Below are positions 2,509-23,511 of a stretch of 32,180 nt of DNA, piece after piece; the first letter of the stretch is position 1; the number at the start of each line of letters is the position of its first letter. Below the pieces are notes generated by a model. It was not told the DNA's origin, ran no database searches, and saw only the letters and a program-made list of their open reading frames with translations. Both the position numbers and the translations under genes were made by a program. The DNA is from Candidatus Delongbacteria bacterium (GTDB lineage Bacteria > UBA4055): positions 1 to 32,180 of the forward strand of contig JAFGVM010000007.1 of assembly GCA_016937995.1 (NCBI GenBank), given 5' to 3'.

Positions 2509-4227
2509 TTATTTTAATAATAACATTTTAATTGATTCACTTATTTCTCCGCTGAAAATAGTACCAAAATAAACTCCCGCAGGTAAATTATCAGCATTGA
2601 ATTTTATTTTACCGGAACCCGATAAATTTGAATATTCTGAAATTAATTTTCCACCTATATTATAAACATTTATCTTAGAATTTTTCGCAAGGTCAGTGTA
2701 GTGTATTATCGTCACAGGATTGAATGGATTAGGGTAGTTATACAATTTTATTCCACTTACAATATTTTCAGTAGTCTCAATCCCGGTCGGCTCGTAATTT
2801 ACAGCAGCAAGTGCATCGATCAGCCCCCACCCGTATCTACCGTCTATATCAGGATTAATTGAACGGTCAGCAGTCATCATCATTGCTTCCCTGACCTGCA
2901 TATTTGTCCATTCAGGATGAGCCGATAAAACCAAACATGCCACTCCTGCTGTCAATGGTGTAGAGTATGAAGTTCCCGATCCTGTTCCATAAGAAGCTGT
3001 TGAAGTATATACTGCGTGATAGTTATTAACTCCCATTGCAACCACTTCGGGTTTAATTCTACCGTCGTAAGTCGGTCCAAATGAAGAAAACACTGCTATG
3101 TTACCTGACAGATCTACCGCACCTACAGAAATAATACTGTCAGCATCTGAAGGTGCCGTCATATACTTCCATGCGTCTCCACCTGAATTGCCCATGGAAT
3201 TACAGATTAATACTCCCAGATAAGCAGCTCTTTTTGCACCCAAAGTACATATCGTAGTTTCACCATCCATATCTTCGTAAGTATAATTTTCCAAAGGATC
3301 ATCAAATTCACTGTATCCCAGAGAACTTGAAACAACATCTGCACCTAAAGCTTCTCCCCATTCAAGAGCTTCGACCATGTAGTCTTCTTCAAGTGTACTT
3401 TCATTCAGATAATCTTCTGTTTTGGCTAAAAGAAAATCTGATCTGTACGCAGGTCCGACCAAAGTGTTTGGTTTATATCCTGCAGCTATCGACCAGCAAG
3501 CTGTTCCGTGGGTTTCCTGATAAGAAATTACATCATTGGAATCCAAAGAAACGTTATCATCATCAAAAATAAAATCGTGCTCAGCTATTACGTTCAAACT
3601 GTCAAAGACCTCATGACTCTTCTTAAATCCTGTATCTATGATCAACAAAGTTACACCTTCGCCATGATATCCCAGATCGTGAACTGCAGGTATATTGATC
3701 TGATTTACCTGATCATATGCATCACCGTAAAATCTGGGGTCTTTGGGTATTTCAACCGGTTCTGCTGATTCAGTGCTCTTCATCTTACCTTTTGGTGGAA
3801 GTATGTCAATATATCTCACAAATTCATGCTTTGAAATTTCCAAAGCTTTATCTGAATTTATCTCTGCAGAAATAAAATTGAACCATTTTGACTCTGATCT
3901 GATTTTTTTCAGCCCCAGCTTTTCAATGTAACCTTTGTAAACCGGTAGATCGGAAAAAAGAACTAAGTTATCTCCTCTTTTGAATGTTTTCGCTCTTCTT
4001 TTTAAAGCTTTTTCACTTATTTCAACTTTGGAGACAGCATTATTAAAACTTTCCTGGTCAAAAATATCTTTATCTGTAAAATAAATAACGAATACTTTGT
4101 CATTTTTTGAACTTGAATTTATGAAATTTTCAGCTCTGGATGAAAATTTATTCTCTTTTGGAGGCGTATAAAAGTCATTTGAAAACAGACTGAATGTCAG
4201 TATTAGTATAACAGGTAATATTTTCAA
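2509..4227 (-). CDS. Secreted subtilisin-like (S8) serine protease with C-terminal sorting domain
   Basis: 572 residues. A signal peptide (about 1-16) is followed by a propeptide-like region (45-140) and an S8 peptidase domain. The catalytic triad is visible: Asp198 in LLIIDTG, His240 in ETHGTACW, Ser420 in GSGTSYSTP, with oxyanion Asn347 in SMGNSGG. Residues 495-572 form a sorting domain (YNYPNPFNP at about 496-504, then INVYNIGGKLI, and LPAGVY near the end) of the type used by FCB bacteria for export by the type IX secretion system (por secretion system) and surface attachment. The start is TTG at 4227, supported by AAGGAG at 4233-4238, 5 bases upstream, and overlapping the preceding stop as TTGA. 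It is probably a cell-surface or secreted protease; its substrate is unknown. Confidence 0.93.
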   Translation of the reverse strand: MKILPVILILTFSLFSNDFYTPPKENKFSSRAENFINSSSKNDKVFVIYFTDKDIFDQESFNNAVSKVEISEKALKRRAKTFKRGDNLVLFSDLPVYKGYIEKLGLKKIRSESKWFNFISAEINSDKALEISKHEFVRYIDILPPKGKMKSTESAEPVEIPKDPRFYGDAYDQVNQINIPAVHDLGYHGEGVTLLIIDTGFKKSHEVFDSLNVIAEHDFIFDDDNVSLDSNDVISYQETHGTACWSIAAGYKPNTLVGPAYRSDFLLAKTEDYLNESTLEEDYMVEALEWGEALGADVVSSSLGYSEFDDPLENYTYEDMDGETTICTLGAKRAAYLGVLICNSMGNSGGDAWKYMTAPSDADSIISVGAVDLSGNIAVFSSFGPTYDGRIKPEVVAMGVNNYHAVYTSTASYGTGSGTSYSTPLTAGVACLVLSAHPEWTNMQVREAMMMTADRSINPDIDGRYGWGLIDALAAVNYEPTGIETTENIVSGIKLYNYPNPFNPVTIIHYTDLAKNSKINVYNIGGKLISEYSNLSGSGKIKFNADNLPAGVYFGTIFSGEISESIKMLLLK

Positions 4228-5740: not shown

Positions 5741-7753
5741 TTAACCATGAATAAAAACCTTAAACATATCGTTTTCGTATTTCAATTTATAATCATTTTT
5801 CTTTACAAAATAAGAAAAATAATCAATCCATTTTAGATGAAATATTTCAGTTGAATCACCTTTCTTTACTGTGGGCCAATATTCAGAACGACCACTTTTC
5901 TTGGCAATAATAACTAGTGAAGGAAAGTTTTCGTTTTTAAAATTTTCTGAAATTTCAAAAAATTTTACAAAATCTTCAATCTCTATCCAAGGAGTATTCA
6001 GAGCAAATTCCTTATCCAGAATGTAATACAACATTGGTATATGATTTACAAAAATTGCCTTATTATTTATCAATTCATATCCTGATAAAAACTTTACTAA
6101 TCCATCTACTGCTTCCACACGTTGAGAAGTACTGAAAATCCCGAAAAGGTTATTTGATTTGAACATCGTTGTCAAATATTTTTTTTCAGAATCTCTATGA
6201 ACTTCGAGAATTACTAGCTTCATGAGTGATATGATCATAACGAATGCAAGAAGAAGAATACTTACTTGAGAACTAGTGATACTTAAATTTTTAGATCGAT
6301 TTTTCTCACTTCGGCCTTCAAAAACTATAACATTCAAAAAGAAAAGCATCGCTCCACCGGACCTGAGTGATGTATTGAATGATAAATTTGAACCTGCAAA
6401 ACTTAATATCAGGACTAAAACAGATCCGATTAGTAAAAGTTTTTTTTGATTATCAATTTTTTTCGTAGTAAAAAGAGAATATGATATAACCGCAAATGCC
6501 AAGGCTATCATAAAATCACAATAAATCAGAATTGAAGTTATGTTATTCAATATCATAACATAGGATGTTAACAAAATAAAAATAAGTTTTAGCCACGGAG
6601 ATCTTATCACAGTTGTAATTTGATATAAGATCAACAAAATAACGCCGATAATAAGTGATACTTTTATAATATTCCAGAAATGTTCAGAATAGATTTTCAT
6701 TAAATAACCTACACCGCTTATATCTGGAGAATTTTTATAGTATTGTTCATTTTTTCTTATCGGTTCTGATCTCATACTATCTGTTAAGAATACATCAAAA
6801 ATGTCATTTTTAGGTTCAAAATTCATCTCAGTATTTTTTTCAAGGGCTGCATGACTGAATGTTTTCAAGTAATTCGTTGATTGTGATAATAAGGATAATA
6901 ATAAAAAGCCTGCAATCATTACGCATAAAACACTTGAATAAATATATTTTAAAGATTTTAACTTTCTTTTTTTAGGCTGATCGCTTTCATAGTATAAGAC
7001 TAGGGGTAAGATTAATGTTAAAATCATTGATATTTTGGCAAATATTGCTAATCCTATAAAACTCCCTGCTAAGATCAGATGTTTTTTACTTATAGACGAG
7101 AATCTTAAATCCTTCAAAATAAGATAAAGTGATCCAATAAGAATCATCGTTGGAAAATTATCATAATTCACAGTAAGGTAGTAATTAAAGTTGATAAAAA
7201 ATACCGAAGTAATAACAATGAACACTAACTTCCTAAAATTGATCTCACAATACAACATTACTGTTTTTACACTGAAGTAAATGATCAATGATACTACGAT
7301 TGAATAACCAACTCTTGCCCATAAGATTGATGGATGTCCAATAATCTTCATCCACAATCCGCTGATAAATGATGTAAGCCATATCATATCAATGTTATTT
7401 GCAATATCACCATTAACTAATGCCCAGGCTTTGGATAAATGATACCCCTGGTCCGTTACATCAAGACTATATTGCACTCTTGACAAAAGGTAAAAGAATG
7501 AATACAGCCATATGAAAAATGAAGATCTTTCTAAAAATCTCTTCCTGTTAAACCTGAAATAAACCACTAGAGAAACAATTATTACTACAAAAAAGTATAG
7601 TGATTTTAGATATAAGAAATTCTTCAAATTAGGATTGATCAAGATTTGCTCATCGAAAATTTGAAAATATGTGAACGGAGCAGTTAATAATAGAGCGATC
7701 AATGCCACAATCACCACAAAAATATCAAGATATTTCTTCCAGGAAGATTTCAT
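5741..7753 (-). CDS. Polytopic GT-C-like membrane protein, paralogue A
   Basis: 670 residues from the ATG at 7753. The longer open frame would start at 7831, inside the upstream gene; the chosen start lies 4 bases after that gene's stop and yields a clean N-terminal helix. Many transmembrane segments fill residues 1-530, and a soluble domain follows. Motifs shared with the two paralogues in this window: TDQG with Asp101 and LSKAW at 106-110 in the first large loop, then LWARVGY, NYDNFP, FAKI, FAGSN with a later RSGG, and GIFSTSQRVEAVD at the start of the C-terminal domain. An acidic residue in the first external loop of a polytopic protein is a hallmark of GT-C glycosyltransferases. The donor is probably the lipid-linked sugar made by the GT2 enzyme encoded downstream. 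The exact substrate is unknown. Confidence 0.75.
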   Translation of the reverse strand: MKSSWKKYLDIFVVIVALIALLLTAPFTYFQIFDEQILINPNLKNFLYLKSLYFFVVIIVSLVVYFRFNRKRFLERSSFFIWLYSFFYLLSRVQYSLDVTDQGYHLSKAWALVNGDIANNIDMIWLTSFISGLWMKIIGHPSILWARVGYSIVVSLIIYFSVKTVMLYCEINFRKLVFIVITSVFFINFNYYLTVNYDNFPTMILIGSLYLILKDLRFSSISKKHLILAGSFIGLAIFAKISMILTLILPLVLYYESDQPKKRKLKSLKYIYSSVLCVMIAGFLLLSLLSQSTNYLKTFSHAALEKNTEMNFEPKNDIFDVFLTDSMRSEPIRKNEQYYKNSPDISGVGYLMKIYSEHFWNIIKVSLIIGVILLILYQITTVIRSPWLKLIFILLTSYVMILNNITSILIYCDFMIALAFAVISYSLFTTKKIDNQKKLLLIGSVLVLILSFAGSNLSFNTSLRSGGAMLFFLNVIVFEGRSEKNRSKNLSITSSQVSILLLAFVMIISLMKLVILEVHRDSEKKYLTTMFKSNNLFGIFSTSQRVEAVDGLVKFLSGYELINNKAIFVNHIPMLYYILDKEFALNTPWIEIEDFVKFFEISENFKNENFPSLVIIAKKSGRSEYWPTVKKGDSTEIFHLKWIDYFSYFVKKNDYKLKYENDMFKVFIHG

Positions 7754-7757
7754 GAAT

Positions 7758-9704
7758 TTACCAGGATAAATTATTATTTTCTTGTTCCAACTTGTAAACA
7801 TAATAAAAAGAATTTGAGAAACACACAACATAATTATTTTCAGCCAGTATCATGTCGTACAGATCGTAATATTTTTGAGCTCGTGCTTCATATACATTAT
7901 TGTTGAACCAACTTTCAGAATAATCAGGCCAAAAAGGATTTCTCTGGGAATGAATCGGTTTTACAATATAATCAGGAGGATTATTCTGCAGATCATTTTG
8001 CAGTGTTTCAAAGTCATTTATCACATCCCATGGGTTATTTGCCGGATAAATCGTTGCTGTCAAATAATAGAATATCGCATTATGCATGGGGTAGAACACT
8101 TTTTTATCAGATATTTCTTCAATCGTTTTCAAATAAATCAAGAGAGAATCTACAACCTCACATCTTTTAGGATTTGATCTTATCCCAAGTAACTCTGTAG
8201 ATGAAAAGCTTCCGTTCAGCTGATGAAAATATAAATCCCTGTAAGGTCTGTAATCCTTCACTGAAAAGAATACTATGAATACTGCAATAGTTGCATAAAC
8301 AAGGTAGTCAAATTTCAGATCCATAAAAAACCTTTCTTCAAGCAGTACTAATAGAAGGAATGACAGAGAAAATATCCCTACACCTGCTCTATAAGCTGTA
8401 GTTATTCCAAGATCACTGCCAAGGAATGAAAAAACAAAAAGAAGGAAGAAAAACAGTATCCGCCAGAGAAAAGTTCCCCTTTTCGATCTACTTATCAATA
8501 CTGCGATAACTACAGTGAGTGATAGAAGATAAGAAGAAATTCCAAGATATAGGTTCGCCCTGTTACCATCAAAGCTGAATATTCTGAAATAGAGGATAAC
8601 TCCTAAAAGAATTGCTATAATATATTTAGCTCCCGGTATTTTTTTAAATTTGAGATTAATCACAGAAGCTAACACTATTGAAAGTACTGTTAAAATTGAG
8701 CCTATACCAATTGAAAATAGCTCTGATAAGTATTTTCTTGTCAAAGTTACAAACGAGTGATCTCTAAGCAGAGAATCAGTCGATTCTCTTCCTGAGTTCA
8801 TCATAAATTCCGATATGATCTTTTCGAAAAATGTATAATAATTTTGTAACCCACCTGAGATTATAAGCAAAGCAATAATAATCACTGTACCAGAAAAAAT
8901 ACCTATGAAATATTCTACAACACTTTTTCTACCTGCTTCTCTTTGATATAAAAAAATGAGAGGTAGGATCAAGACAGGCAGGAAAGTGATCTTGGCAAAA
9001 ATTGCTAAAGTATAGAATATTCCTGAAATGAATATCCTCCAATTCAATTTATCGTTTGAATTCAGATTTGCTACGAGAACCAAATAAACTGAGATCAGGG
9101 AAAGCAATACCGGCAGATTATCATAGTTTATAGTATGATAATACTGCATATAGGATGTTAAAAAAGTCATCAATACCACTATCACCAAAACAAAACTGTT
9201 TTTATAAAAAGTGTGTAATATCTTGTAAGAAAAAAAAACAATTAGAGATTGCACCAAAACAAACCCTACTCTTGCCCATAATAACATTGGTTCTCCGAAC
9301 ATTGCCAACCATAGACCACCTATTATATTCGTACCTGCAACAGCATCTAGATTTTCTTTCCAGAGTCCATGATACATAGCCCATTGCTTACTAAGACTAA
9401 AACCCGTATCTGTTGTTTCATATCCATACGGAATGAAGAATAAATACCAGACAGAAACGGATATGAAAAGGATTAAATCAGTGTATTTATGATAATTCGA
9501 CCTGTTGATAAAAAATAATAACCAGGTTGAAAATAAAGTTACAATAGACCAATATCCGAAAAAATAATAAACTGAAAACATTTCAGCTGGATTGAAATTT
9601 TCGTATACTGGATTGAAAGGTGATTTAATAAACAGCCAGATAACGATCATTCCAATAAATAACAATTTTACATAGTTTGTATATGTTCTTTCAGTGGTGC
9701 TCAT
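7758..9704 (-). CDS. Polytopic GT-C-like membrane protein, paralogue B
   Basis: 648 residues from the ATG at 9704 (MSTTERTY). The open frame extends to 9785, but a promoter lies inside that extension (9732-9760), CAGG at 9710-9713 fits as ribosome-binding site, and the N terminus then matches paralogue C in length (IKSPFNP here, LISPFNQ there). Asp99 in TTDTG and LSKQW at 104-108 form the conserved first-loop motif; LWARVGF, NYDNLP, FAKITF, FLGSD plus RAG, and GIRSNPKRCEVVD follow in the same order as in A. The multi-pass part is followed by a soluble periplasmic-looking C-terminal domain. The role is probably periplasmic sugar transfer from a polyprenyl-linked donor (inference). Confidence 0.75.
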   Translation of the reverse strand: MSTTERTYTNYVKLLFIGMIVIWLFIKSPFNPVYENFNPAEMFSVYYFFGYWSIVTLFSTWLLFFINRSNYHKYTDLILFISVSVWYLFFIPYGYETTDTGFSLSKQWAMYHGLWKENLDAVAGTNIIGGLWLAMFGEPMLLWARVGFVLVQSLIVFFSYKILHTFYKNSFVLVIVVLMTFLTSYMQYYHTINYDNLPVLLSLISVYLVLVANLNSNDKLNWRIFISGIFYTLAIFAKITFLPVLILPLIFLYQREAGRKSVVEYFIGIFSGTVIIIALLIISGGLQNYYTFFEKIISEFMMNSGRESTDSLLRDHSFVTLTRKYLSELFSIGIGSILTVLSIVLASVINLKFKKIPGAKYIIAILLGVILYFRIFSFDGNRANLYLGISSYLLSLTVVIAVLISRSKRGTFLWRILFFFLLFVFSFLGSDLGITTAYRAGVGIFSLSFLLLVLLEERFFMDLKFDYLVYATIAVFIVFFSVKDYRPYRDLYFHQLNGSFSSTELLGIRSNPKRCEVVDSLLIYLKTIEEISDKKVFYPMHNAIFYYLTATIYPANNPWDVINDFETLQNDLQNNPPDYIVKPIHSQRNPFWPDYSESWFNNNVYEARAQKYYDLYDMILAENNYVVCFSNSFYYVYKLEQENNNLSW

Positions 9705-9731
9705 TTTAACCTGATTTAATTCTGCAGTAAA

Positions 9732-9760
9732 ATTATACACCCGCAATAGCGGTTTTACAA
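9732..9760 (-). promoter_or_regulatory. Promoter of the GT-C/GT-C/GT2 operon
   Basis: On the minus strand, TTGTAA (9755-9760), a 17-base spacer and a perfect TATAAT (9732-9737). Transcription would begin near 9725, leaving a leader of about 20 bases before the ATG at 9704. The spacer contains the inverted repeat CCGC-AATA-GCGG (9741-9752), a possible operator. Confidence 0.65.
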
Positions 9761-9881
9761 GTTTATAATTTTTAAAGTACTGCATACCTATAAGAATTCC
9801 GTTTATGAAATTGTTTTCTATTTTATATTTGCATTTTTTGCCTTATACTTAACTGAAAGTAAAATTATAGAAGATCCCGAA

Positions 9882-12986: not shown

Positions 12987-13868
12987 ATGATAAACAGATC
13001 TGTATCTTTAATACTGCCATGCTATAACGAAGAAGAGAGCATAAAGGAAACTTTAGACAGAGTAATTGAGTTCATGCGGTCAAATTTCTCAGATTATGAA
13101 ATAATTGTAGTAAATGATGCTTCAAAGGATAAAACAAGATCTATTCTTGACGAATACAGTGGGATCACTGTTATTGATCATCCGTATAACAAAGGTAACG
13201 GTTCCGCAGTAAAAACAGGCATAAGAAACTCAAAGAAGGACCATGTGTTAATGATGGATTCTGACGGGCAGCATGACATCAATGACATCATACCAATGAT
13301 GGAGCTGCTTGATGTTTATGATTGTGTGGTCGGTTCCAGAACTAAAAGTTCAGAAGGTTCAGTTCATCGAAATCTGGCGAATATATTCTATAACTGGCTA
13401 GCATCCTATGTGACCAGCGTAAAGATTCATGACCTTACAAGTGGTTATAGAGGTTTTAGGACTAATGTGATAAAAAAATTTCTGTACCTATTCCCTAACG
13501 GTTTTTCATATCCTACAACTTCAACTCTGGCTATCATTAAAGCGGGATACAACCTTAAATATCATCCTATCGTAGTAAGTAAAAGAAAGGGAAAGAGTAA
13601 GATCAAGCTGTTCCGAGACGGATTCAGATTTTTGTTAATCATAGTAAAGATCACTATACTATTCTCTCCTTTAAAGGTATTTTTACCCATCAGTCTGGTG
13701 TTTGTCTTCTCAGGTCTTTTTCATATGCTTTATAAAATATTTGTGTTGAATTTGCGTTATACACAATTCACTACTTTTATGATTAGTGTAGGAGTAATTA
13801 TATTTTTAATAGGTCTGTTATCAGAGCAAATATCAACTCTTCGATACGATAAGCTTGAAGAAGATTAA
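12987..13868 (+). CDS. GT2 glycosyltransferase, DPM1-like (polyprenyl-phosphate sugar synthase)
   Basis: 293 residues. ILPCYNEEESI (9-19), VVNDASKD (41-48) and DSDGQH (91-96) are the GT2 motifs; HPYNKGNGSAVKTG (65-78) and DLTSGYRGF match the DPM1/polyprenyl-monophosphomannose synthase branch. Two C-terminal transmembrane helices (about 223-250 and 260-282) follow, as in membrane-bound members. The likely reaction is transfer of a hexose from a nucleotide sugar to a polyprenyl phosphate on the cytoplasmic side. It is the first gene behind the promoter at 12927 and is 20 bases upstream of another GT2 gene. Confidence 0.88.
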   Translation: MINRSVSLILPCYNEEESIKETLDRVIEFMRSNFSDYEIIVVNDASKDKTRSILDEYSGITVIDHPYNKGNGSAVKTGIRNSKKDHVLMMDSDGQHDINDIIPMMELLDVYDCVVGSRTKSSEGSVHRNLANIFYNWLASYVTSVKIHDLTSGYRGFRTNVIKKFLYLFPNGFSYPTTSTLAIIKAGYNLKYHPIVVSKRKGKSKIKLFRDGFRFLLIIVKITILFSPLKVFLPISLVFVFSGLFHMLYKIFVLNLRYTQFTTFMISVGVIIFLIGLLSEQISTLRYDKLEED

Positions 13869-13888: not shown

Positions 13889-14845
13889 ATGGATCATTTA
13901 AAAATATCAGTAATCGTTCCGGTCTATAACGGTGAAGAAACCTTAGAAAAATGCCTGAATGCAATTAGTAAAATCCAATACTCAAAAGATCTTTACGAAG
14001 TGATACTTGTTAATGATGGGTCAACTGATAATACAGAAAAAATAGCTGAAAAATTTGAATTTCTTAAAATTGTCGACTTCAAAGTCAATAAGGGAAGACT
14101 TATTGCAAGAAAGACCGGAGCCGAAAAAGCAAGTTTTAACGAACTGCTTTTTGTGGATTCCAGAATAGAGATCTATGAAGATATCCTTTTAAAAAGAAAT
14201 GAAATCGGGTATTCTCCTCTGATCGCAGGTGATCTGGGTGTGGAAAAGTATTCAAGCATATTCGATACACTTTTTTACCTTATCCGGAAAAAGATCTACA
14301 GCCCATACTTCCCCCAGGTAAATTATAAAGATGAGTTGTGGATCACTTCTGATAATTTTTTTAATGCACCAAAAGGCACAGGATGTTTTTTCATCGACAA
14401 AAATTTATTTCTTGATAATTTACCCGAGGATCTTTCAAAAGATTCGAATGATGATACGAAGATCATGAAGAATATAGTAAATGATAATGTAAAAATACTT
14501 AGACACACGGGTATCAGGTTGAAATATCATCAGAGAAAAGATAACAATATTTATTCCTGGATACACCACAGAGGGAAGATCTGGGCTGACCATTATCTAA
14601 CTTTCGTAAATATTTATTCGATACTTTATTGTCTGGTCTCAATAACTTTTCTGGTACTTTTATTTAACTGTATCGGATCGTTCTTATTTCTTTTTGTTTT
14701 ACTTCTTTTTCTGTTGGGAGTTTACTTAGCAGAGAATGTAAAAGATTTCTTTATTGTGATAAGGTCCCTTCCGGTTCTGGCGGTACTGTTCTACTTTGGA
14801 ACAATTAAAAAATTATCAAAAAACCTTATTAAAAAACTTACTTAA
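13889..14845 (+). CDS. GT2 glycosyltransferase with unusual DSR in place of DxD
   Basis: 318 residues. SVIVPVYNGEETL (7-19) and LVNDGSTDNTE (40-50) are standard GT2 sequences. Where the metal-binding DxD is expected there is FVDSR (88-92), so the third position is Arg92. Two hydrophobic helices near the C terminus (about 240-285) anchor it to the membrane. It probably extends a lipid-linked glycan in the cytoplasm. Its stop overlaps the ATG of the next gene by one base (TAATG). The DSR variant might mean a different donor mode or a weak enzyme; members of GT2 with altered motifs are known, so loss of function should not be assumed. Confidence 0.82.
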   Translation: MDHLKISVIVPVYNGEETLEKCLNAISKIQYSKDLYEVILVNDGSTDNTEKIAEKFEFLKIVDFKVNKGRLIARKTGAEKASFNELLFVDSRIEIYEDILLKRNEIGYSPLIAGDLGVEKYSSIFDTLFYLIRKKIYSPYFPQVNYKDELWITSDNFFNAPKGTGCFFIDKNLFLDNLPEDLSKDSNDDTKIMKNIVNDNVKILRHTGIRLKYHQRKDNNIYSWIHHRGKIWADHYLTFVNIYSILYCLVSITFLVLLFNCIGSFLFLFVLLLFLLGVYLAENVKDFFIVIRSLPVLAVLFYFGTIKKLSKNLIKKLT

Positions 14846-15768
14846 TGAAAAAAATTCTATTCTACATATTATTCACTATCATTTTGCTTTATTTCATTTT
14901 CAACACTAATATTGATTTTTCGGTACTTTCCCGTCTTTCGATTCTTGATTTTATTTATTACAGCCTGATCATACTATCTACTGTTTTACTAACCGCAATA
15001 TCGGTAAAACTGAATTTCTATTTGTACGGGATCAAAGAAAAATTTATTACACTTTATCATTTTACAACTGCCAGTATGTTACTTAATTACATGCCGGGAA
15101 AAGCAGGTATTATTTCTCTCGTTTCGTATTTGAAGATCAAGCATAAACTACCTATCAATAAATATATCTTTGTTTTCATTCTGAATTATACGATAGTCAC
15201 TATCGTCACTTTTATCATGTTCTTTGCTTTTTTATTTGATGATCGAATTTTTATGATATATGAAAAATTTGAATTTTTTAAACTGCTTACAATAGTGGCT
15301 ATTGTGATTATATTCGCTTTCACAGGAGTGTATTTTACCTCCAGATTTAAAGACATTAAAGTTCTGAATTATTTTCATATTTTTATAAGCCATATAAATC
15401 TGGTAAAATTACATTTCAGCAAAATATTGCAGCTTTCTTTCGTAATTTTCCTGGGTATCGTTTTATTCTCCGTAAGGATGTATTTTTCTTTTTCATATGC
15501 GGGTTTGAATATTACTTTTTTCGATAGTCTTATCGTAGGACTGATCGCTAATCTATCTTTCTTCTTATCATTTACTCCTGGCGGTCTGGGTATTAAAGAA
15601 AGCATGATAGGTGGAATATCATATGTTTTATTTGGAAATGCGGAAGTGGGCATACTTGCATCTTTGATCGATAGAGGAATGATGATATTATGGACTGTAG
15701 TTTTAGGATCTTTTTCCATTAAAAAACTTGATCAAAAAATTCGTAGAGAAGTTAAAAAAATTGATTAG
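14845..15768 (+). CDS. UPF0104/YbhN-type membrane protein (LPG-synthase transmembrane-like)
   Basis: 307 residues with about eight transmembrane segments. NYMPGKAGIISLVSYLK (about 85-101) and FTPGGLGIKES (about 246-256) are the paired signature loops of the lysylphosphatidylglycerol-synthase transmembrane family. The soluble aminoacyl-transferase domain of MprF is absent, so it should not be called an LPG synthase. Such stand-alone proteins often lie in glycan loci and are suspected to flip lipid-linked intermediates. It overlaps the preceding GT2 gene by one base and ends 10 bases from the convergent epimerase gene. No terminator hairpin is visible between them. Confidence 0.82.
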   Translation: MKKILFYILFTIILLYFIFNTNIDFSVLSRLSILDFIYYSLIILSTVLLTAISVKLNFYLYGIKEKFITLYHFTTASMLLNYMPGKAGIISLVSYLKIKHKLPINKYIFVFILNYTIVTIVTFIMFFAFLFDDRIFMIYEKFEFFKLLTIVAIVIIFAFTGVYFTSRFKDIKVLNYFHIFISHINLVKLHFSKILQLSFVIFLGIVLFSVRMYFSFSYAGLNITFFDSLIVGLIANLSFFLSFTPGGLGIKESMIGGISYVLFGNAEVGILASLIDRGMMILWTVVLGSFSIKKLDQKIRREVKKID

Positions 15769-15778
15769 CTGAACCCTA

Positions 15779-16864
15779 TCAATTTACAAAATCTTTGCAG
15801 GCGTCTATAACGATATCTGATGGACTCTTATCCAGCTTCAGGAAATCAAATTTGTAGCTATCGAGATCATTGATAAAATTATCGAGTATATTATCATCGA
15901 AATAACTCAGAACAGCATTTCTTCCCAGACCTTCCTGCCTCTCAGTCACATTTCGAAGCAGTATTACAGGTTTGCCGAGATAGTAACATTCTTCCTGATT
16001 ACTTCCTCCGTCACTTACGACAAATCTGGAATGAATTATTAATTTTATGAAATTAAAATAATCGTATCTGTTTCTTAATTCAATATTTGGATCATCCTTC
16101 AACTTTTGATATAGACCATATTTTTTCAGCTTGATCTCTGTCGGTTTGTGCAGAATAAAAATAAGTTTGTGCTTCTCGCTAATTCTTTTCACTGCATGAA
16201 CTATTTTATTGAATGACGAAATATTTCGTAAATTTTCAAACCTGTGGATCGTAACAATACCATATTCGTAGTCAGGTATTTGAATATCAGCTATTGAAGT
16301 TATCGCAGGAAGAGCAAACTTCAATGAGTCATACAGGGTATTTATTTCTGTATTGATCTTCAATCCTTTGTATTTTTTTAAATTTTCGATCGCCCAGTCT
16401 CCAGGGCAGAACATATAGTCTGAAAGTCTGAAAACAAGAACCCTTACCAATTCTTCAGGAAAAGGTTGAAATAGGTTAAAGGATCTCAGCCCGGATTCCA
16501 CGTGACCTACTTTTAGCCCGGATAGCTTAGCCATGATCGCACCTACCAGTGTTGAGACAGTATCTCCGTGAACCAACACAATACCGTTTTTATCATTTTT
16601 GAATATTTTCTTTTTGTTCAGAACGGTATAAAAAAGTAACTTTGCTGACCAGATCATCATCTGAAATACTGATGTAATATCCTTTCCGGAATATATCGTG
16701 TGATCCGGTTCCTTGATCTCAAAATTTTGCAATATGTCATTTATTGTTTCCTTATGCTGACCCGTAGAAATATAATTATATTCAGCACCTCTCATCTTTA
16801 ATATCTTCATGATCGGAGCCATTTTTATAAGCTGGGCTTTAGTCCCTATTACTATGTGTATCAT
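15779..16864 (-). CDS. Divergent non-hydrolysing UDP-GlcNAc 2-epimerase homologue
   Basis: 361 residues, the normal length for WecB. Active-site equivalents are visible: Asp101 in VHGDT, Glu123 in HVESGLRSF, Glu137 in PFPEE, His207 in TIHR, and SDGGSNQEE for UDP binding. The N-terminal loop, normally GTRPE, reads IGTKAQLIK (6-14), so the Arg that contacts the nucleotide is Lys. The insert in SFNLFQPFPEEL is also not canonical. The expected reaction interconverts UDP-GlcNAc and UDP-ManNAc, but the altered loop may mean another UDP-sugar. The gene overlaps the methyltransferase stop by one base, so the two are co-expressed and their products may act on the same sugar. Confidence 0.8.
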   Translation of the reverse strand: MIHIVIGTKAQLIKMAPIMKILKMRGAEYNYISTGQHKETINDILQNFEIKEPDHTIYSGKDITSVFQMMIWSAKLLFYTVLNKKKIFKNDKNGIVLVHGDTVSTLVGAIMAKLSGLKVGHVESGLRSFNLFQPFPEELVRVLVFRLSDYMFCPGDWAIENLKKYKGLKINTEINTLYDSLKFALPAITSIADIQIPDYEYGIVTIHRFENLRNISSFNKIVHAVKRISEKHKLIFILHKPTEIKLKKYGLYQKLKDDPNIELRNRYDYFNFIKLIIHSRFVVSDGGSNQEECYYLGKPVILLRNVTERQEGLGRNAVLSYFDDNILDNFINDLDSYKFDFLKLDKSPSDIVIDACKDFVN

Positions 16865-17709
16865 TATATTTCAACTTTCTTTGTTAATGTTAGGCAAAAA
16901 ACCGTTAAATTAGGCGGCCAGACCGCAAATTTTTCATTTTTGACAACTGATTTGATCTTATAAAATAATTTGGGTAATCTCCACGGTAATAATCTTTTGT
17001 CTATATCTCTTGCTCTGTAAGTCGTAAATACATCCAGTCCATCTATATTTGATCCAAGATCGAACTCTATGTCAGTCCTTTTGTTGAAATAATTCTTCAA
17101 ATAGTCAACAAGTATTTTTCCTTTTTCTACGCTAATATCCCTGGTCCCGTCAATAGAAACATCGAAGGTAACTATCAGGGTTCCCCCAGGTACAAGGACC
17201 CTATAAAATTCTTCAATTATCTTACCGTAATCATCTGTATGCTCTAAGACAGAAATACAGTAGATCAAATTGAACATATTATCATCATATGGAAGATCTC
17301 TAAGATCACCCTGTCTAAACTTGACACTAGATCCATTTTTTATATTGATCGCATTATATTTTCTTTCGAGACCTTTATCCTGATCACAACAATAAATTCT
17401 TACATCCGCATATACTTTATTGAGATAAAAAGAAAAAAATGTTATTCCTGATCCCGCATCAAGTATCGCATGATCAGTAGAGTTACCTATACTTTCTTTT
17501 ATTCTGCTCAAGACATACGGATATTCCCACTGCCTGCTCCATTGGTGTAGAGGATCGTTAACCCATTTTTTCATATAGTTACCCAATATTTTTTTATTGG
17601 ACACTACATAAGAATCGGAGAACTTTTCCATATCCTTATACATTTTGGATTCGAGCAGAGAAAGATAATCTTTAATTTGAGGAAAACCGTCATTTATTTC
17701 ATTTTTCAT
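16864..17709 (-). CDS. Class I SAM-dependent methyltransferase
   Basis: 281 residues. Motif I is ILDAGSG (82-88), followed by an acidic loop at CCDQD (107-111), QGDLRDLPY (133-141), CISVLEHTDD (151-160) and RVLVPGGTLIV (170-180), all typical of the Methyltransf_11 type. The N-terminal 75 residues contain WVNDPLHQWSRQWEYP (49-64), possibly the substrate-binding part. It is co-transcribed with the divergent 2-epimerase, so methylation of a sugar or glycan end is a reasonable guess. It is divergent from the pilin gene and has its own TTGACA promoter with a palindrome in the spacer. Confidence 0.82.
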   Translation of the reverse strand: MKNEINDGFPQIKDYLSLLESKMYKDMEKFSDSYVVSNKKILGNYMKKWVNDPLHQWSRQWEYPYVLSRIKESIGNSTDHAILDAGSGITFFSFYLNKVYADVRIYCCDQDKGLERKYNAINIKNGSSVKFRQGDLRDLPYDDNMFNLIYCISVLEHTDDYGKIIEEFYRVLVPGGTLIVTFDVSIDGTRDISVEKGKILVDYLKNYFNKRTDIEFDLGSNIDGLDVFTTYRARDIDKRLLPWRLPKLFYKIKSVVKNEKFAVWPPNLTVFCLTLTKKVEI

Positions 17710-18378: not shown

Positions 18379-20283
18379 ATGTTATATAAAGCTTTGAGAA
18401 GATATGAGATCTTAATGATCTCAACCTTTCTTTTTATATGGTTATGCTTAATATCCCCTTTTAACCAGAAAATTATTGACCCGGAACTATCTGTTATAGA
18501 GCTTGAGTTTATATTCTCCAGGTTTCTGGTATTGGTTATATGGGTAATTATTTTTTTGACCGGATACATCCTTTTAAAAAAAAATAAAAAAGATACATTT
18601 TTTCCATTCGTTCTCTGGAACATTATCTTCTTTCTCCTGACATTCACTTTCAATATCGGATTTGATCTAACAGATGAAGGTTGGCAGTTATCCAAATCCT
18701 GGTGGTCCATTCATGGAAATACTACCGGAAACTTCGATCTTATATGGGGATCTTCTTTTATTAACGGGTTATGGATGTCTATTCCCTCCAGAGTATCGTT
18801 GATCTGGTCCCGGTTCGGGTTTCTGCTTTTTTTCCCTTTTTTTTCAACTGTGATCTATTACATTTTAAAAAGATATTATGCCGGAAAGTACGTTTTCTGG
18901 GGAGTAGTAATATCTTTTTTATTCTTCTATAGAAATTTTTTGATCTATCCATATATTAACTACTATTACCTTCCGGTTTTTTTTGTTTTGCTTTCGATCT
19001 TATTTCTCCTTAATTATGAAGATAACCTTAAGCTCAAACACCTGATCTTAAGCGGTTTATTTGCAGGTATTTCTATTCATATGAAATTCACCTTTATCCT
19101 TATCTTACCGGTCTATGGTATTTATCTTACCCTGTTTGAAGTTGATAATCCTAACAAAAAAAGATCGGTCATTATTTATTATTCAGCATTATTATCTGCT
19201 TTGATAACAGGATTTATTATTCTTACTTTCGCAGGATCAGATACATTTTTCGACAAAGACAGCAGGCTTTCTATCCTTACTATGTTCAACACATTCTTCG
19301 GCAGTAAAAAGATCAACAGTAGTTTAAACTATTCATTTATACACCTTACCTATGTATATTCAAAAGACCTTGGAGTAATGATACTGCATTTGATCGTACC
19401 TTTAATTCTGTTCATTTCCGGAGCTGTTTTATCCAAAAAATATATTTTCCTCAAATATTTTTCATGGCTCCTAATTGGCATATTGCTTATTGTGTATAAA
19501 GAACAGACTGATAATAACTTTTTGCTGGTAGTATCAATATTTTTTGCACTTGATATTATTCTGACCGCACTACACGGATCAAAAAACAGGGAGATCTTTA
19601 AACTGAACTATATGTTCCTGTACGTATTTTTTGTGTCATTTCTGGGATCAGGAATGAGTATTTATGCAGCTTTGATATCCGGTGGGCTATTCGGATTTTC
19701 TGCCTTCATCATAACTGCTTTGTTATCTGTAAGACCGGAGAAGCTGGATTTCAGGATACTAGTTTATTCGCTCATTGTTTTTATTCTGGTCATTCAGTTT
19801 AAAAAAGAGTTCGTCGCATACAGAGATATTGAATCCAGATATTTGAACGCTATGTTCAAAAGCCCCGAGCTTTCAGGTATTTATTCATTCAAAGAAAGAG
19901 TTGATGTCGTCGATGAATTTATTTCAAATGCTAAAAAGATAATTTCTAAGGATGATAAAGTATTTATTGTCGGGATGCCTATGTTTTATTATATTCTGAA
20001 TATTGAACCGGTCATTTCTGAACCTTACGACCTTATCCTGGGACTGGATCAATTGAAGGAAGAGATCAAAGAACAAGATCCTAGTGTAATTATTACTCCG
20101 GTCCAGTCTCCAAGAGGAGTATACTGGCCGCTTGAAAGGAACATCAGCTTCTCTTTGAAGGATAAGTTTGAGATATCAACAAGGAAATATCACGAATTTT
20201 ATGGTTCGTATATTTCTGAAAATGGACTTATCAAAGTATTTTCCAACTCAATGTTCCAGATCTACAAAAAGGAGAGCCAATAA
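18379..20283 (+). CDS. Polytopic GT-C-like membrane protein, paralogue C
   Basis: 634 residues. It shares the motif order of paralogues A and B: Asp99 in LTDEG, LSKSW at 104-108, NGLWMS and IWSRFGF, NYYYLP, MKFTF, FLGSG, then GIYSFKERVDVVD before a soluble C-terminal domain that ends with FSNSMFQIYK (B ends similarly with FSNSFYYVYK). The Asp of NYDN is replaced by Tyr here, and the Arg after the FLGS motif is Ile, so some family positions are not kept. It lies 39 bases after the pilin terminator and directly abuts the next gene. A role as a glycosyltransferase or an oligosaccharyltransferase acting on pilin is possible but unproven. Expression may depend on readthrough, since the only promoter-like pair nearby leaves almost no leader. 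Confidence 0.75.
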   Translation: MLYKALRRYEILMISTFLFIWLCLISPFNQKIIDPELSVIELEFIFSRFLVLVIWVIIFLTGYILLKKNKKDTFFPFVLWNIIFFLLTFTFNIGFDLTDEGWQLSKSWWSIHGNTTGNFDLIWGSSFINGLWMSIPSRVSLIWSRFGFLLFFPFFSTVIYYILKRYYAGKYVFWGVVISFLFFYRNFLIYPYINYYYLPVFFVLLSILFLLNYEDNLKLKHLILSGLFAGISIHMKFTFILILPVYGIYLTLFEVDNPNKKRSVIIYYSALLSALITGFIILTFAGSDTFFDKDSRLSILTMFNTFFGSKKINSSLNYSFIHLTYVYSKDLGVMILHLIVPLILFISGAVLSKKYIFLKYFSWLLIGILLIVYKEQTDNNFLLVVSIFFALDIILTALHGSKNREIFKLNYMFLYVFFVSFLGSGMSIYAALISGGLFGFSAFIITALLSVRPEKLDFRILVYSLIVFILVIQFKKEFVAYRDIESRYLNAMFKSPELSGIYSFKERVDVVDEFISNAKKIISKDDKVFIVGMPMFYYILNIEPVISEPYDLILGLDQLKEEIKEQDPSVIITPVQSPRGVYWPLERNISFSLKDKFEISTRKYHEFYGSYISENGLIKVFSNSMFQIYKKESQ

Positions 20284-21255
20284 ATGAAAATCATTATAAC
20301 AGGTGTAGCAGGATTCATCGGATCCAACCTTGCAAAAACCCTTCTGGACAGAGGTCATGAGATAATTGGTATTGATAATCTGAGCTATGGATTAGAAAGA
20401 AACATTCAAGATTTCAGGGACCATCCTAAATTTAAATTCGTTTTCGGTGACATCGCCAATCCACTGATATTAAAGGACTTTCATTCTGAAATAATAATTC
20501 ATCTGGCTTCACAAAAAATACCAAGATATACAAATGCTCTAAGAACTCTCGATGAAAATTATCTTATGCTAAGAAACATAATCCAGAAATGTATTCTGGA
20601 CAGATCTAAAATAATCTTTGCTTCAACTTCGGATGTTTACGGTAAGAACGAAAAAGTTCCTTTTCATGAGGAATCTGATCTGGTACTGGGTTCAACAACA
20701 ATAAAAAGGTGGGCATACGCATCATCAAAGATTTATGGAGAACAATATATCATTGCCAACAGTGAAGAATATGGATTAAAATATACCATCGGAAGATTTT
20801 TCGGCAGTTATGGTCCGAATCATAATTTAACATGGTGGGGCGGTCCTCAATCAGGATTTATCACAAAGGCGTTGGAAAATGAAGAGATCGAAATTCATGG
20901 GGACGGAAGTCAGACAAGAACGTTCACCTATGTTGATGATACTGTAGATGCTCTGGTAAAATTTGTAGAAAATAACAGCTCTGACAATGAGATCTTCAAT
21001 ACCGGCTCTAATCCGGACGAGGAAATTTCTATACTCGGTCTGGGAAAACTTATCTGGAAACTGGTTAACGGAGAAAATTCCGAACCTAAATTCAAATATA
21101 TACCTTACTCATCATTTGGTAAGTACGAAGATGTTATGAGACGGGTTCCTGACATATCCAAATTGAAACAATTTTTTAATTTTGATCCTCAATATTCTCT
21201 TGAAGAAGGATTGAAAAAAACGATCGAATGGCAAAGGAAATTACTTGGAAAATAA
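20284..21255 (+). CDS. NAD-dependent nucleotide-sugar epimerase/dehydratase (SDR, GalE-like)
   Basis: 323 residues. Rossmann motif GVAGFIG (7-13), Asp31 in GIDNLS for the NAD ribose, Ser/Thr at 114-116 (ASTSDVYG), and the catalytic Tyr145 and Lys149 in YASSK. GRFFGSYGPNH and GDGSQTRTFTYVDD are typical of UDP-sugar 4-epimerases, 4,6-dehydratases and UDP-glucuronate decarboxylases; no feature here decides which. It acts in the cytoplasm to make a nucleotide sugar for the locus. AAAGGAG at 20268-20274 lies 9 bases before the ATG, which follows the previous stop without a gap. The next gene starts inside its end. Confidence 0.88.
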   Translation: MKIIITGVAGFIGSNLAKTLLDRGHEIIGIDNLSYGLERNIQDFRDHPKFKFVFGDIANPLILKDFHSEIIIHLASQKIPRYTNALRTLDENYLMLRNIIQKCILDRSKIIFASTSDVYGKNEKVPFHEESDLVLGSTTIKRWAYASSKIYGEQYIIANSEEYGLKYTIGRFFGSYGPNHNLTWWGGPQSGFITKALENEEIEIHGDGSQTRTFTYVDDTVDALVKFVENNSSDNEIFNTGSNPDEEISILGLGKLIWKLVNGENSEPKFKYIPYSSFGKYEDVMRRVPDISKLKQFFNFDPQYSLEEGLKKTIEWQRKLLGK

Positions 21256-22339
21256 AATTAAAAAAAAAATAGTAACCATTATCGGTGCAAGACCTCAGTT
21301 CATTAAAGCTGCCGTGGTCAGTAGAGAATTAAGAAAAAGAACCGGGATCGAAGAGATCATTATCCATACCGGACAGCACTTTGATGAGAACATGAGTAAG
21401 ATCTTTTTTGATGAACTTGAAATAGCCGAACCTAAATACAACCTCGGGATATCTTCTCTGTCGCAGGGTGCAATGACAGGAAAAATGATCGAAAGTATTG
21501 AAAAAATCGTCATTGATGAAAGACCAGATCTTGTTCTGCTCTACGGTGACACTAATTCAACATTGGCCGGTGCGCTGGCTACGGTAAAACTTAACATACC
21601 TGTTGCACATGTTGAAGCCGGACTCAGATCATTTAACAATAAAATGCCCGAAGAAATTAACAGGATCCTGACTGACAGGATCAGTTCACTTCTATTCACT
21701 CCGACTGATAAAGCGACCGAGAATTTGACCGCTGAAGGATTTATAAATCTCGGTGCCAGGATAATCCCCTCGGGTGATGTTATGTATGACTCCGCGATCC
21801 TGTACAAAAATAATGAAAAGATTCCTGATATCGAAATTCCTGAGAAATTTATTCTCGCAACTATTCACAGACCTGAGACAACTGACAGTTACGAAAATCT
21901 TATCAACTGTATAAACGTATTAAAAAATAATGCACCATTTCCTGTCATTCTTTCTCTTCATCCCAGGACCAAAGATAAAATAAAAAAATATAAGATCGAC
22001 ACAGACTGCGGAAATCTTATGCTTATCGATCCGGTCAGTTACAGAGAAATGCAATATTTACTCGGCAGGTCTGAATTTGTCGCAACTGACAGCGGTGGAC
22101 TTCAGAAAGAATCATTTTTTAACGGAAAATATTGTTTGACCCTTCGGACTGAAACTGAATGGGTAGAATTAGTTGATAACGGGACCAACTATGTCTGCGG
22201 ATATGACCCGGTTAAGATAATTGAAGCTATGGACATCATTGTAAAAAAAGATAGATTTGACCCTGCTTCATATGATCTTTACGGAAATGGGAATGCTTCA
22301 AAAATAATTGTTGATACTATAATTGATTATTTAAACTGA
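21245..22339 (+). CDS. UDP-GlcNAc 2-epimerase family, WbpI-like
   Basis: 364 residues. GARPQFIKAA (14-23), YGDTNSTLAGA (100-110), HVEAGLRSFN (122-131), MPEEINR (134-140) and HRPE (208-211) contain the expected Asp102, Glu124, Glu137 and His208. CLTLRTETEWVEL near residues 297-309 is the signature of the WbpI branch, which acts on UDP-2,3-diacetamido-glucuronate, rather than the TTERPE of WecB. The assignment to that substrate is tentative, because wbpA, B, D and E are not in the window. The start is TTG, with AAAGGA (21233-21238) 6 bases upstream inside the end of the preceding gene, an 11-base overlap. Confidence 0.88.
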   Translation: MENKIKKKIVTIIGARPQFIKAAVVSRELRKRTGIEEIIIHTGQHFDENMSKIFFDELEIAEPKYNLGISSLSQGAMTGKMIESIEKIVIDERPDLVLLYGDTNSTLAGALATVKLNIPVAHVEAGLRSFNNKMPEEINRILTDRISSLLFTPTDKATENLTAEGFINLGARIIPSGDVMYDSAILYKNNEKIPDIEIPEKFILATIHRPETTDSYENLINCINVLKNNAPFPVILSLHPRTKDKIKKYKIDTDCGNLMLIDPVSYREMQYLLGRSEFVATDSGGLQKESFFNGKYCLTLRTETEWVELVDNGTNYVCGYDPVKIIEAMDIIVKKDRFDPASYDLYGNGNASKIIVDTIIDYLN

Positions 22340-22351
22340 AAGAAAACGAGC

Positions 22352-23074
22352 ATGATTTATTTTATTGTACCTGTATATAACGAAGAACTAAATATTGAAG
22401 AGCTCGCATCTTCACTGAAAAAAGTATTACCTGAAAGAGAAAAATTCTTTGTTTTTATTGATGATCATTCCACTGATAATACCTTAAAGAACATTGACCT
22501 TTATTTTGGCAGTATGAAATACCATATTATAACAAAAGAAAAAAATGCAGGACCGGGAGATTCTTTTAACATCGGTTTTGAATATCTGCTGGATAAAACA
22601 CTTAAAGAAGATCTGATAATAACTATTGAGGCTGATAATACATCCAGTCTGGAAATTCTTGATAAAATGGTAACTATCTCTGAACTCGGATACGGGATCG
22701 TTCTCGCGTCCCCTTATGCTCAGGGTGGTGGATTCGAAGAAACAACTCTAATAAGAAAAATTCTGTCATTTGTCGCAAATACAGCACTCAGATTCATTTT
22801 TGATATAAAAGTTCTTACTCTAAGCTCTTTTTACAGAGTATATAAACCTGAAGCTATTACGCAGATCAAAAATAAATATGGCGTTATCATTGAGGAGCCC
22901 GGATTTATTTGTATGGTGGAAGTACTGATCAAAGCTATCAGATGTAAGATAAGCATTATCGAAGTACCAATGGTCCTAAGCTCCAATAAGCGGAAAGGCA
23001 GGTCAAAAATGAAAATAATGAGAACAATGATCAATTATTCAGCTTTCTTACTAAAAAATATCTTTAAAAAATAG
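22352..23074 (+). CDS. GT2 glycosyltransferase, DPM1-like soluble form
   Basis: 240 residues. FIVPVYNEELNIEEL (4-18), FIDDHSTDNT (35-44) and NAGPGDSFNIGF (65-76) place it in the DPM1-like group. At the usual DxD there is IEADNTS (92-98), so the first acid is Glu93 and Asp95 is kept. FYRVYKPEAI and KGRSKMKIMRT near the end also match polyprenyl-phosphate sugar synthases. There are no clear C-terminal membrane helices, unlike the enzyme encoded at 12987. It lies 5 bases upstream of a GtrA-type gene, and such pairs make and move polyprenyl-phosphate sugars. Confidence 0.85.
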   Translation: MIYFIVPVYNEELNIEELASSLKKVLPEREKFFVFIDDHSTDNTLKNIDLYFGSMKYHIITKEKNAGPGDSFNIGFEYLLDKTLKEDLIITIEADNTSSLEILDKMVTISELGYGIVLASPYAQGGGFEETTLIRKILSFVANTALRFIFDIKVLTLSSFYRVYKPEAITQIKNKYGVIIEEPGFICMVEVLIKAIRCKISIIEVPMVLSSNKRKGRSKMKIMRTMINYSAFLLKNIFKK

Positions 23075-23079
23075 ATCTA

Positions 23080-23511
23080 ATGAGATTAGTCCAGATTTTA
23101 AAAAAATACTTAGATGTCAAACAAAATTCAGGATCAGTCAAAAGGCAGTACATTGCTTTTGTAGCTGTCGGTGCTGTATCTTTTGTGATCGGGATCCTTC
23201 TTCTCAAGCTTTTTTATAAAGAAATGGGACTCGGTTTGATAACATCAAACACTATTTCATTTATAATTGTTTCCGCTGTTAATTTTGTTCTGAGCATAAA
23301 ATTTGTTTTTATCCGGGGGAAAAATTCTGCAGCAAAAGAAATTACACTTTTTTACATTACTGCAATATTTACGCTTTTACTGGATAATTTTCTGTTGGAT
23401 ATTTTTGTGAGAACTCTTGAAATCTATTACGTTATGGCTAAAATACTTACTGTTTCAAGCGTTTCTATTGCTTCTTTTCTGCTGAGAAAATTTATAGTCT
23501 TCAAAAAATAA
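23080..23511 (+). CDS. GtrA family membrane protein (candidate lipid-linked sugar flippase)
   Basis: 143 residues with four transmembrane segments (about 26-45, 52-72, 85-108, 115-135). FVAVGAVSFVIGILL and the last part with SFLLRKFIVF match the GtrA domain, whose C terminus usually ends in a basic and aromatic F-x-F patch. In Shigella phages GtrA is thought to flip undecaprenyl-phosphate glucose made by GtrB for the GT-C enzyme Gtr. The same three functions are present in this locus. It ends 12 bases from the convergent methyltransferase gene. Confidence 0.85.
   Translation: MRLVQILKKYLDVKQNSGSVKRQYIAFVAVGAVSFVIGILLLKLFYKEMGLGLITSNTISFIIVSAVNFVLSIKFVFIRGKNSAAKEITLFYITAIFTLLLDNFLLDIFVRTLEIYYVMAKILTVSSVSIASFLLRKFIVFKK

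Follow-up and report, generated by a model that had tools for sequence, protein, structure and literature searches.

A separate clade of probable WecB-like UDP-sugar 2-epimerases with two altered nucleotide loops and a recurrent polyprenyl-phosphate-type glycosyltransferase partner

What does a WecB-type epimerase make when its nucleotide loop is altered, and with which partner does it work? The question is raised by a gene in the window, the whole 32,180-nucleotide stretch of DNA from Candidatus Delongbacteria bacterium (contig JAFGVM010000007.1, assembly GCA_016937995.1) that was analysed here. The protein lies in a glycan locus and reads GTKAQ where WecB reads GTRPE, as an initial annotation made from the letters of the window had correctly pointed out; we refer to it and its relatives as TKAQ proteins. 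That annotation also took the epimerase and the methyltransferase gene overlapping its start to be a possible dedicated pair that makes an unusual methylated sugar. The features of the locus are collected in Table 1.

Table 1. Features of the epimerase locus, in positions of the window
Feature	Position	Strand	Details
Partner GT2, polyprenyl-phosphate glycosyltransferase type	12987..13868	+	nearest: AglJ, ArnC, GtrB, DPM synthase
Second GT2, C-terminal hydrophobic segments	13889..14845	+	between partner GT2 and epimerase
Flippase-like membrane protein (PF03706)	14845..15768	+	
TKAQ-type UDP-sugar 2-epimerase (PF02350)	15779..16864	-	361 aa; ORF runs 16864->15779
Second altered loop, DGGSNQEE	15989..16012	-	residues 285-292; WecB equivalent DSGGIQEE; ribose-binding Glu is E292, kept
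Lengthened segment	16580..16687	-	residues 60-95
First altered loop, GTKAQLIK	16823..16846	-	residues 7-14; WecB equivalent GTRPEAIK
Class I SAM methyltransferase	16864..17709	-	one-base overlap with epimerase start (TAATG)
Type IV prepilin, 117 aa	17938..18291	+	TIGR02532 33 bits, cut-off 16.3
Multi-membrane GT-C-like protein after prepilin	18379..20283	+	PMT_2 E 2.1e-4, 22 bits, cut-off 26.1
Second, ordinary Epimerase_2 (GARPQ, DSGG)	21245..22339	+	same contig

The protein is a member of the Epimerase_2 superfamily (PF02350, E 2.9e-53, 181.4 bits against a curated cut-off of 30.6). Its score against the WecB equivalog model TIGR00236, 206.1 bits, is just below that model's cut-off of 210.15, and against the NeuC (hydrolysing) model TIGR03568 it reaches 34.3 bits, with a cut-off of 235.9. 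None of the 25 solved chains found by search exceeds 135 bits, so no close TKAQ relative has a solved structure. An AlphaFold2 model (pLDDT 95.1) superposes on the M. jannaschii UDP-GlcNAc 2-epimerase (4nes) with Z 40.5 and an rmsd of 2.6 over 347 residues; the Z score is 30 for NeuC and about 22 for plant GT-B enzymes.

The active site is largely that of a non-hydrolysing enzyme. With E. coli WecB (from NC_000913.3) as the reference for residue mapping, the catalytic D95, E117, E131 and H213 correspond to D101, E123, E137 and H207 in 76/76 aligned clade members, which bears out the retention of the Asp, the two Glu and the His noted initially. For the T. thermophilus homologue, crystallography (PMC10622841) gives a conserved active site of R12, K17, D98, E120, S284, E290, R302 and E306 and a conserved allosteric pocket of Q40, H41, E132 and H240. 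Measured against these residues, the clade keeps six of eight in the active site (K14, D101, E123, E292, R304 and E308) and four of four in the allosteric pocket (Q36, H37, E137 and H239), all invariant in 49 members; the changed positions are the counterparts of R12 and S284. Because these residues are kept, the TKAQ protein is probably a non-hydrolysing UDP-HexNAc 2-epimerase, making UDP-ManNAc. A hydrolysing NeuC-like enzyme, or a GT-B glycosyltransferase with the epimerase fold, is very improbable: NeuC proteins also lack the Pro of TRPE (their loops read GTRADF and GNRAEY) and many neighbours of TKAQ genes encode glycosyltransferases, but the invariant catalytic and allosteric residues are those of non-hydrolysing enzymes, the profile scores favour WecB over NeuC (206.1 against 34.3 bits), and with an outgroup of four NeuC rows the TKAQ clade groups with WecB-like proteins, apart from NeuC, with a support of 100.

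In the first loop, R10, P11 and E12 of E. coli WecB have become K9, A10 and Q11. Across the 76 aligned members position 10 (E. coli numbering) is Lys in 70 and Arg in 6, and positions 11 and 12 are Ala and Gln without exception; related genomes supplied 22 other Epimerase_2 proteins for comparison, and these have Arg at position 10 throughout and Pro at position 11 in 21. The initial annotation did not notice that the second loop is changed as well, with S290 replaced by G286 in 76/76 members and G292 by S288 in 75/76. Judged by R10 and S290, the two positions of E. coli WecB that mark the UDP loops, the protein departs from the non-hydrolysing epimerases. The two loops are coupled: members with GTRAQ, which only the second search pattern could catch, carry DGGSNQE; conversely, GTKAQLIK is present in those that read DGGSLQE, DGGSIQE or DGGGNQE and that the first pattern alone could catch.

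The Arg whose loss had been emphasised does correspond to a UDP contact, since in the T. thermophilus homologue, according to PMC10622841, R12 stacks on the uracil near the pyrophosphate, while S284 binds the alpha-phosphate and E290 bridges the ribose hydroxyls. The residue is indeed replaced in the window's protein; because Lys takes its place and 6/76 members keep Arg, though, the change is conservative and inconstant. Exchange between Lys and Arg at position 10 needs three changes on a tree of 73 proteins, and, judged from the aligned sequences, Arg to Lys is the least stable part of the clade signature. Both changed loops touch UDP, a point against a plain UDP-HexNAc substrate; the Glu that bridges the ribose is retained as E292, which speaks in favour of a nucleotide sugar.

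The phylogeny with WecB-like and NeuC proteins that had been proposed initially places the TKAQ members in one clade. Two quick trees, one of 77 proteins and one of 73, put the clade on one side of a branch with SH-aLRT supports of 100 and 98, respectively, and the support is 99 after removal of the columns of both loops. Support for WecB-like proteins as a group apart from the clade is 85 with the loops and drops to 36 once these are removed, and the analysis flagged one long NeuC row; we therefore claim only the clade itself and not its deep placing. Members were mostly found through the patterns GTKAQLIK or SDGGSNQE, and the named loci are the best 80 of 122 relatives, chosen by loop patterns. 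Eight of these 80 are the same contigs as genomes of the window's family and were counted once, three rows without a readable first loop or longer than 420 aa were excluded from the 76-member alignment, and L111, L123 and L124, missed by gene finding, are absent from the counts. Neighbouring genes were called by a simple longest-ORF rule and grouped into single-linkage clusters, which are named from one to three scanned members.

Since the members had mostly been found by pattern, we added a pattern-free profile search of 321 genomes from the class of Pseudomonas delhiensis. It returned eight members (seed included) at 322-589 bits, separated by a score gap from the next best match at 209 bits. 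All eight read [KR]AQ together with DGGSNQEE, four of them with Arg. Of 26 lower-scoring proteins whose loops were read, 22 of them from this search and 4 from another, all have DSGG and 25 have RP.

The clade is apparently an old, widespread and unstudied branch of UDP-sugar 2-epimerases. Among the best 80 of 122 relatives 38 are from Gammaproteobacteria, and most are from metagenome bins; smaller numbers of the remaining loci belong to Thermodesulfobacteriota, Bdellovibrionota, Nitrospirota, Nitrospinota, Acidobacteriota, Chloroflexota and several candidate phyla. A text search of open-licence papers for both loop motifs found no paper, and a viral-contig collection contained no relative of the epimerase. 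Carriage on phages or plasmids was rejected, as every match there, in 34 plasmid and 19 phage records, is below 60% identity; the matches listed (10 each) are at 30-34%. Nor is there support for the window's copy having come recently from Halobeggiatoa (L045, 69% identity). In a quick tree the window's epimerase groups with those of seven other family genomes with a support of only 32-33, and a single clade of all ten epimerases of the window's family is rejected (p-AU 0.008). The two kinds can occur in a single cluster: in the Novimethylophilus locus L070 the TKAQ gene is followed, two genes on, by an ordinary 2-epimerase (GTRPEVIK, 8241-9392).

Given the proposal of a dedicated epimerase-methyltransferase pair, we asked how often the two genes go together. 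From the one-base TAATG overlap, co-translation is a fair guess in the window's genome, where this part of the initial annotation stands. Across the window's family the pairing breaks down: the methyltransferase was not found (E 1e-10) in the drafts G004 and G007, which have the epimerase, it is present without the epimerase in G006, and in all seven other family genomes with both genes, also drafts, the two lie on separate contigs. Close homologues of the methyltransferase occur near the epimerase in 2/78 other loci, namely L045, where the two genes are adjacent and convergent, and L094, where it is three genes away; weak ones occur in 6/78, and in 70/78 no neighbour has the window's methyltransferase as its best window match (E 1e-5). 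The methyltransferase was thus rejected as a general partner. Any methyltransferase at all directly adjoins the epimerase upstream in 3/71 clade loci (the window's included), against at most 1/44 for ordinary 2-epimerases, and downstream in 8/78, against at most 1/47. These frequencies, which the initial annotation had suggested checking, do not establish a dedicated pair; a mild tendency of methyltransferases to adjoin TKAQ genes is possible. A pair dedicated to a methylated sugar would draw on the overlap, the homologues in L045 and L094 and the adjoining-gene counts, but the separation of the genes within the family, the convergent arrangement in L045 and the 70/78 loci without this methyltransferase make it a doubtful proposition, to which we give little credence.

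The usual partner of the TKAQ epimerase seems instead to be a polyprenyl-phosphate-type GT2. The nearest solved chains to the window's partner GT2 are ArnC, GtrB and dolichol-phosphate mannose synthase, and the nearest NCBIfam model is AglJ, although the protein falls below the cut-off of every specific model listed; with its GT2 domain and three C-terminal hydrophobic segments, it is a putative polyprenyl-phosphate glycosyltransferase. A homologue (E 1e-10) stands directly upstream of the epimerase on the same strand in 29/71 loci, and 21 of these 29 are at least 40% identical to the window's GT2; no AglJ-type GT2 is directly upstream in the other 42/71. By domain, PF00535 is found in the next upstream gene in 30/71 clade loci (8 being family genomes) and in 2/44 ordinary 2-epimerase loci, the neighbour being the nearest ORF of at least 150 aa in the clade and, under a slightly unlike rule, the longest ORF within 900 bases in the comparison set, which had 1.5 kb flanks. 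In the pattern-free set this GT2 adjoins only 2/7 members (seed left out; 1.5 kb flanks).

Within the 13 genomes of the window's family, orthologs of the epimerase (at least 55% identity) and of the GT2 (at least 62%) are both present in 10 and both missing in 3, with the G003 GT2 counted from a contig-end fragment (81% over 42 residues). The three genomes in which neither was found, G001, G002 and G006, are drafts that are 79-91% complete; G001 and G002 belong to the same genus as the window's genome, and G006 to that of G010 and G012, where the two genes are present. In six other family genomes the gene immediately upstream of the epimerase shares 70-73% identity with the window's GT2, and in two more it shares 62%; in the window itself the GT2 lies on the opposite strand from the epimerase with two genes between. 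The second GT2 has a homologue on one strand with the epimerase and the partner GT2 in 9/78 other loci, and in 6/78 (L077, L091, L106, L108, L114 and L115) the flippase-like protein joins them. In three other family genomes (G005:C5, G009:C188 and G010:C161) a paralogous GT2 (35-36%) is found about 2 kb from the counterpart of the window's prepilin, away from the TKAQ gene.

A partner of a type that acts on polyprenyl phosphate also bears on a more radical reading of the loops, in which they reflect a changed or missing nucleotide and the sugar epimerised at C2 is lipid-linked or activated by something other than uridine nucleotide. Such an enzyme would have given up free UDP-HexNAc as its substrate and would work at the membrane, on or alongside the GT2 product, inverting C2 of an amino sugar that is polyprenyl-linked or activated in some other way; we consider this inversion improbable. 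Both changed loops are nucleotide/phosphate loops and are altered together, canonical 2-epimerases coexist in the window's genome, and the segment at residues 60-95 has a median of 36 residues in the clade against 29 in other Epimerase_2 proteins, forms a helix at residues 66-82 in the predicted model and, in the majority of members though not in every one, exceeds its counterpart in hydrophobicity; that this segment contacts the membrane is a guess. Set against this are the absence of any predicted membrane-spanning segment in the epimerase and the invariance of the ribose-bridging E292 and of the four allosteric residues, which bind UDP-GlcNAc in known enzymes. On this evidence a lipid-linked or non-uridine substrate is a long shot, and a UDP-sugar 2-epimerase remains the preferred reading.

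Which UDP-sugar is used can be approached from the neighbours. TarF-like clusters occur in 11/79 loci, glycerol-3-phosphate cytidylyltransferase-like clusters in 9/79 and both in 8/79 (L072, L073, L076, L079, L080, L083, L097 and L116), the scanned members (three and two, respectively) being below the cut-offs of specific models. ManNAc is the sugar that receives glycerol phosphate in teichoic acids, and these clusters are therefore a hint of ManNAc; they suggest that Gram-negative and candidate-phylum bacteria with TarF-like clusters may make a glycerol-phosphate-bearing glycan. Of 12 genomes chosen for the genes next to their epimerase, 8 gave no Epimerase_2 match at E 1e-10 besides the TKAQ gene, and none gave a WecC above its cut-off. 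A dehydrogenase cluster is present in 9/79 loci; its three scanned members pass the general NDP-sugar model, with UDP-ManNAc dehydrogenase as the best specific model, under its cut-off.

The window's genome carries two ordinary Epimerase_2 genes besides the TKAQ gene, one of them 4.4 kb off on the same contig, so that a plain supply of UDP-ManNAc looks redundant there. This redundancy is one reason to consider the same chemistry with a different UDP-sugar as substrate, such as UDP-GlcNAcA or UDP-2,3-diacetamido-glucuronic acid, along the lines of WbpI and the T. thermophilus homologue. Q11 of the TKAQ protein matches Q14 of the T. thermophilus enzyme, a sugar-ring contact in PMC10622841, and the dehydrogenase cluster of 9/79 loci, along with a DegT aminotransferase cluster in 11 loci, would fit such substrates. 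However, 70/79 loci are without the dehydrogenase cluster within the flanks examined, and a scan of window genes near the epimerase turned up no such dehydrogenase and no aminotransferase; we regard another UDP-sugar as rather unlikely, though worth keeping in view.

A possible acceptor comes from prepilin islands. In six proteobacterial loci (L062, L070, L087, L090, L096 and L109) a prepilin, a membrane protein of about 645 aa, a GT2 and the epimerase follow one another on one strand, with one short ORF intervening in L062, and the prepilin motif is found in 13/80 named loci. In a model of the L070 membrane protein the N-terminal ~430 residues match OST, PMT and ArnT with Z 15-19 over ~300-340 residues, and the C-terminus resembles TPR repeats; for this one modelled member, the membrane domain beside pilA in Proteobacteria thus has a predicted GT-C fold. 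Foldseek alone gave nothing for this protein at E 0.001. The window, too, has a prepilin, short and with a C-terminal Cys pair, which lies 87 bases before the GT-C-like gene and is one of five prepilin matches in the window's genome; the GT-C-like protein has 15 hydrophobic segments. A pilin target is not claimed for the window itself, as G001 keeps the prepilin (C261:1991-2203) and an ordinary epimerase (C261:5355-6353) at the window's spacing with no TKAQ gene found, so that this module can stand alone.

The GT-C-like protein of the window and the products of 5741-7831 and 7758-9785 (both minus strand) are three mutually homologous multi-membrane proteins (24-31% identity), two of them with no Pfam match at E 0.001. 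A GT2 (22352-23074) and a GtrA/DPMS membrane domain protein (PF04138, 23080-23511) on the plus strand form a gene pair (22352-23511) resembling the GtrB-GtrA part of a three-component glycosylation system, and 2509-4227 (minus strand) encodes a subtilase with a Por secretion tail (PF18962). Elsewhere, a possible deacetylase cluster lies near the epimerase in L046, L090, L096 and L118, in two of which, from Pseudomonas, it comes directly after it; the L118 member matches Polysacc_deac_1 and ArnD, and the L090 member matches no family.

Taking together the predicted fold, the kept residues, the coupled loops, the single clade and the recurrent GT2, we lean, by a modest degree, towards a separate-clade non-hydrolysing UDP-HexNAc 2-epimerase whose UDP-ManNAc-type sugar is passed by the GT2 to polyprenyl phosphate and then by a GT-C enzyme to an acceptor. 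Known 2-epimerases eliminate UDP to give 2-acetamidoglucal and re-add it on the other face, with UDP-GlcNAc as activator. By analogy, the TKAQ epimerase would remove UDP from UDP-GlcNAc or a close derivative to form the glycal (2-acetamidoglucal) intermediate, and UDP would be re-added on the other face so that the 2-N-acetyl group is inverted and a UDP-ManNAc-type sugar results, UDP-GlcNAc acting as activator. The partner GT2 would load this sugar onto polyprenyl phosphate, and a membrane GT-C enzyme would transfer it to an extracellular acceptor, which in some Proteobacteria may be pilin. As no characterised clade member was found in the literature, homology is the basis for both chemistry and substrate: we infer the chemistry from WecB/MnaA and the polyprenyl-phosphate loading from the GT2 partner, and the substrate, the products of epimerase and GT2 and the acceptor are likewise proposals.

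By homology TKAQ genes would be named wecB, and should the clade prove to be an enzyme apart, paired with a GT2 of its own, wecB names mislead in candidate-phylum bacteria and Proteobacteria. The pair of a 2-epimerase and a polyprenyl-phosphate GT2 predicts a lipid-carried ManNAc-type sugar, and in prepilin islands the pair would point to a sugar on pilin. In the titles and abstract openings of open-licence literature there was no clear precedent for a lipid-carried ManNAc-type sugar from such a pair, nor a clear match that links an epimerase of this sort to polyprenyl carriers or to the glycosylation of pilin. A 2-epimerase of lipid-linked sugars, if true, would be of a kind for which we know of no precedent. 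Judged on sequence, we take the clade to be a variant, so far uncharacterised, of an enzyme kind that is already known, and to have a possible role in lipid-linked sugars.

Comparison with known systems delimits this variant. The TKAQ protein shares with WecB/MnaA/RffE (TIGR00236) the fold (Z about 32-40), the D/E/E/H catalytic set, the ribose Glu, the Arg-Glu pair and the allosteric residues, and differs in reading [KR]AQ for TRPE and DGGS for DSGG, in the longer segment after residue 60, in scoring 206.1 bits against the cut-off of 210.15, and in its separate clade. The WbpI-type UDP-2,3-diacetamido-glucuronic acid 2-epimerase (8sxy) has the same fold (Z 39.5) and catalytic residues and also a Gln in the first loop (RPQ there, KAQ here), although both loops are otherwise different. 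NeuC/GNE (TIGR03568) shares the fold and a first loop without Pro, but the score to its model is only 34.3 bits, its second loop reads GNSS[SA]G, and NeuC lies outside the TKAQ clade. In P. aeruginosa, according to PMC11841053, TfpW is a GT-C enzyme encoded next to pilA that adds D-arabinofuranose to pilin. The TKAQ prepilin islands resemble this arrangement in associating a GT-C gene with pilA, and differ in that a GT-C/TPR protein is followed by a GT2 and the epimerase. Three-component extracytoplasmic glycosylation is exemplified by GtrB/GtcA/GT-C, by ArnC-ArnD-ArnT and by Francisella FlmF2-NaxD-FlmK. The TKAQ loci share with these systems a polyprenyl-phosphate-type GT2, a flippase-like membrane protein and a GT-C-like transferase, and four loci add a cluster of which one of two scanned members is ArnD/polysaccharide-deacetylase-like; unlike in these systems, here a sugar-nucleotide 2-epimerase travels with the GT2.
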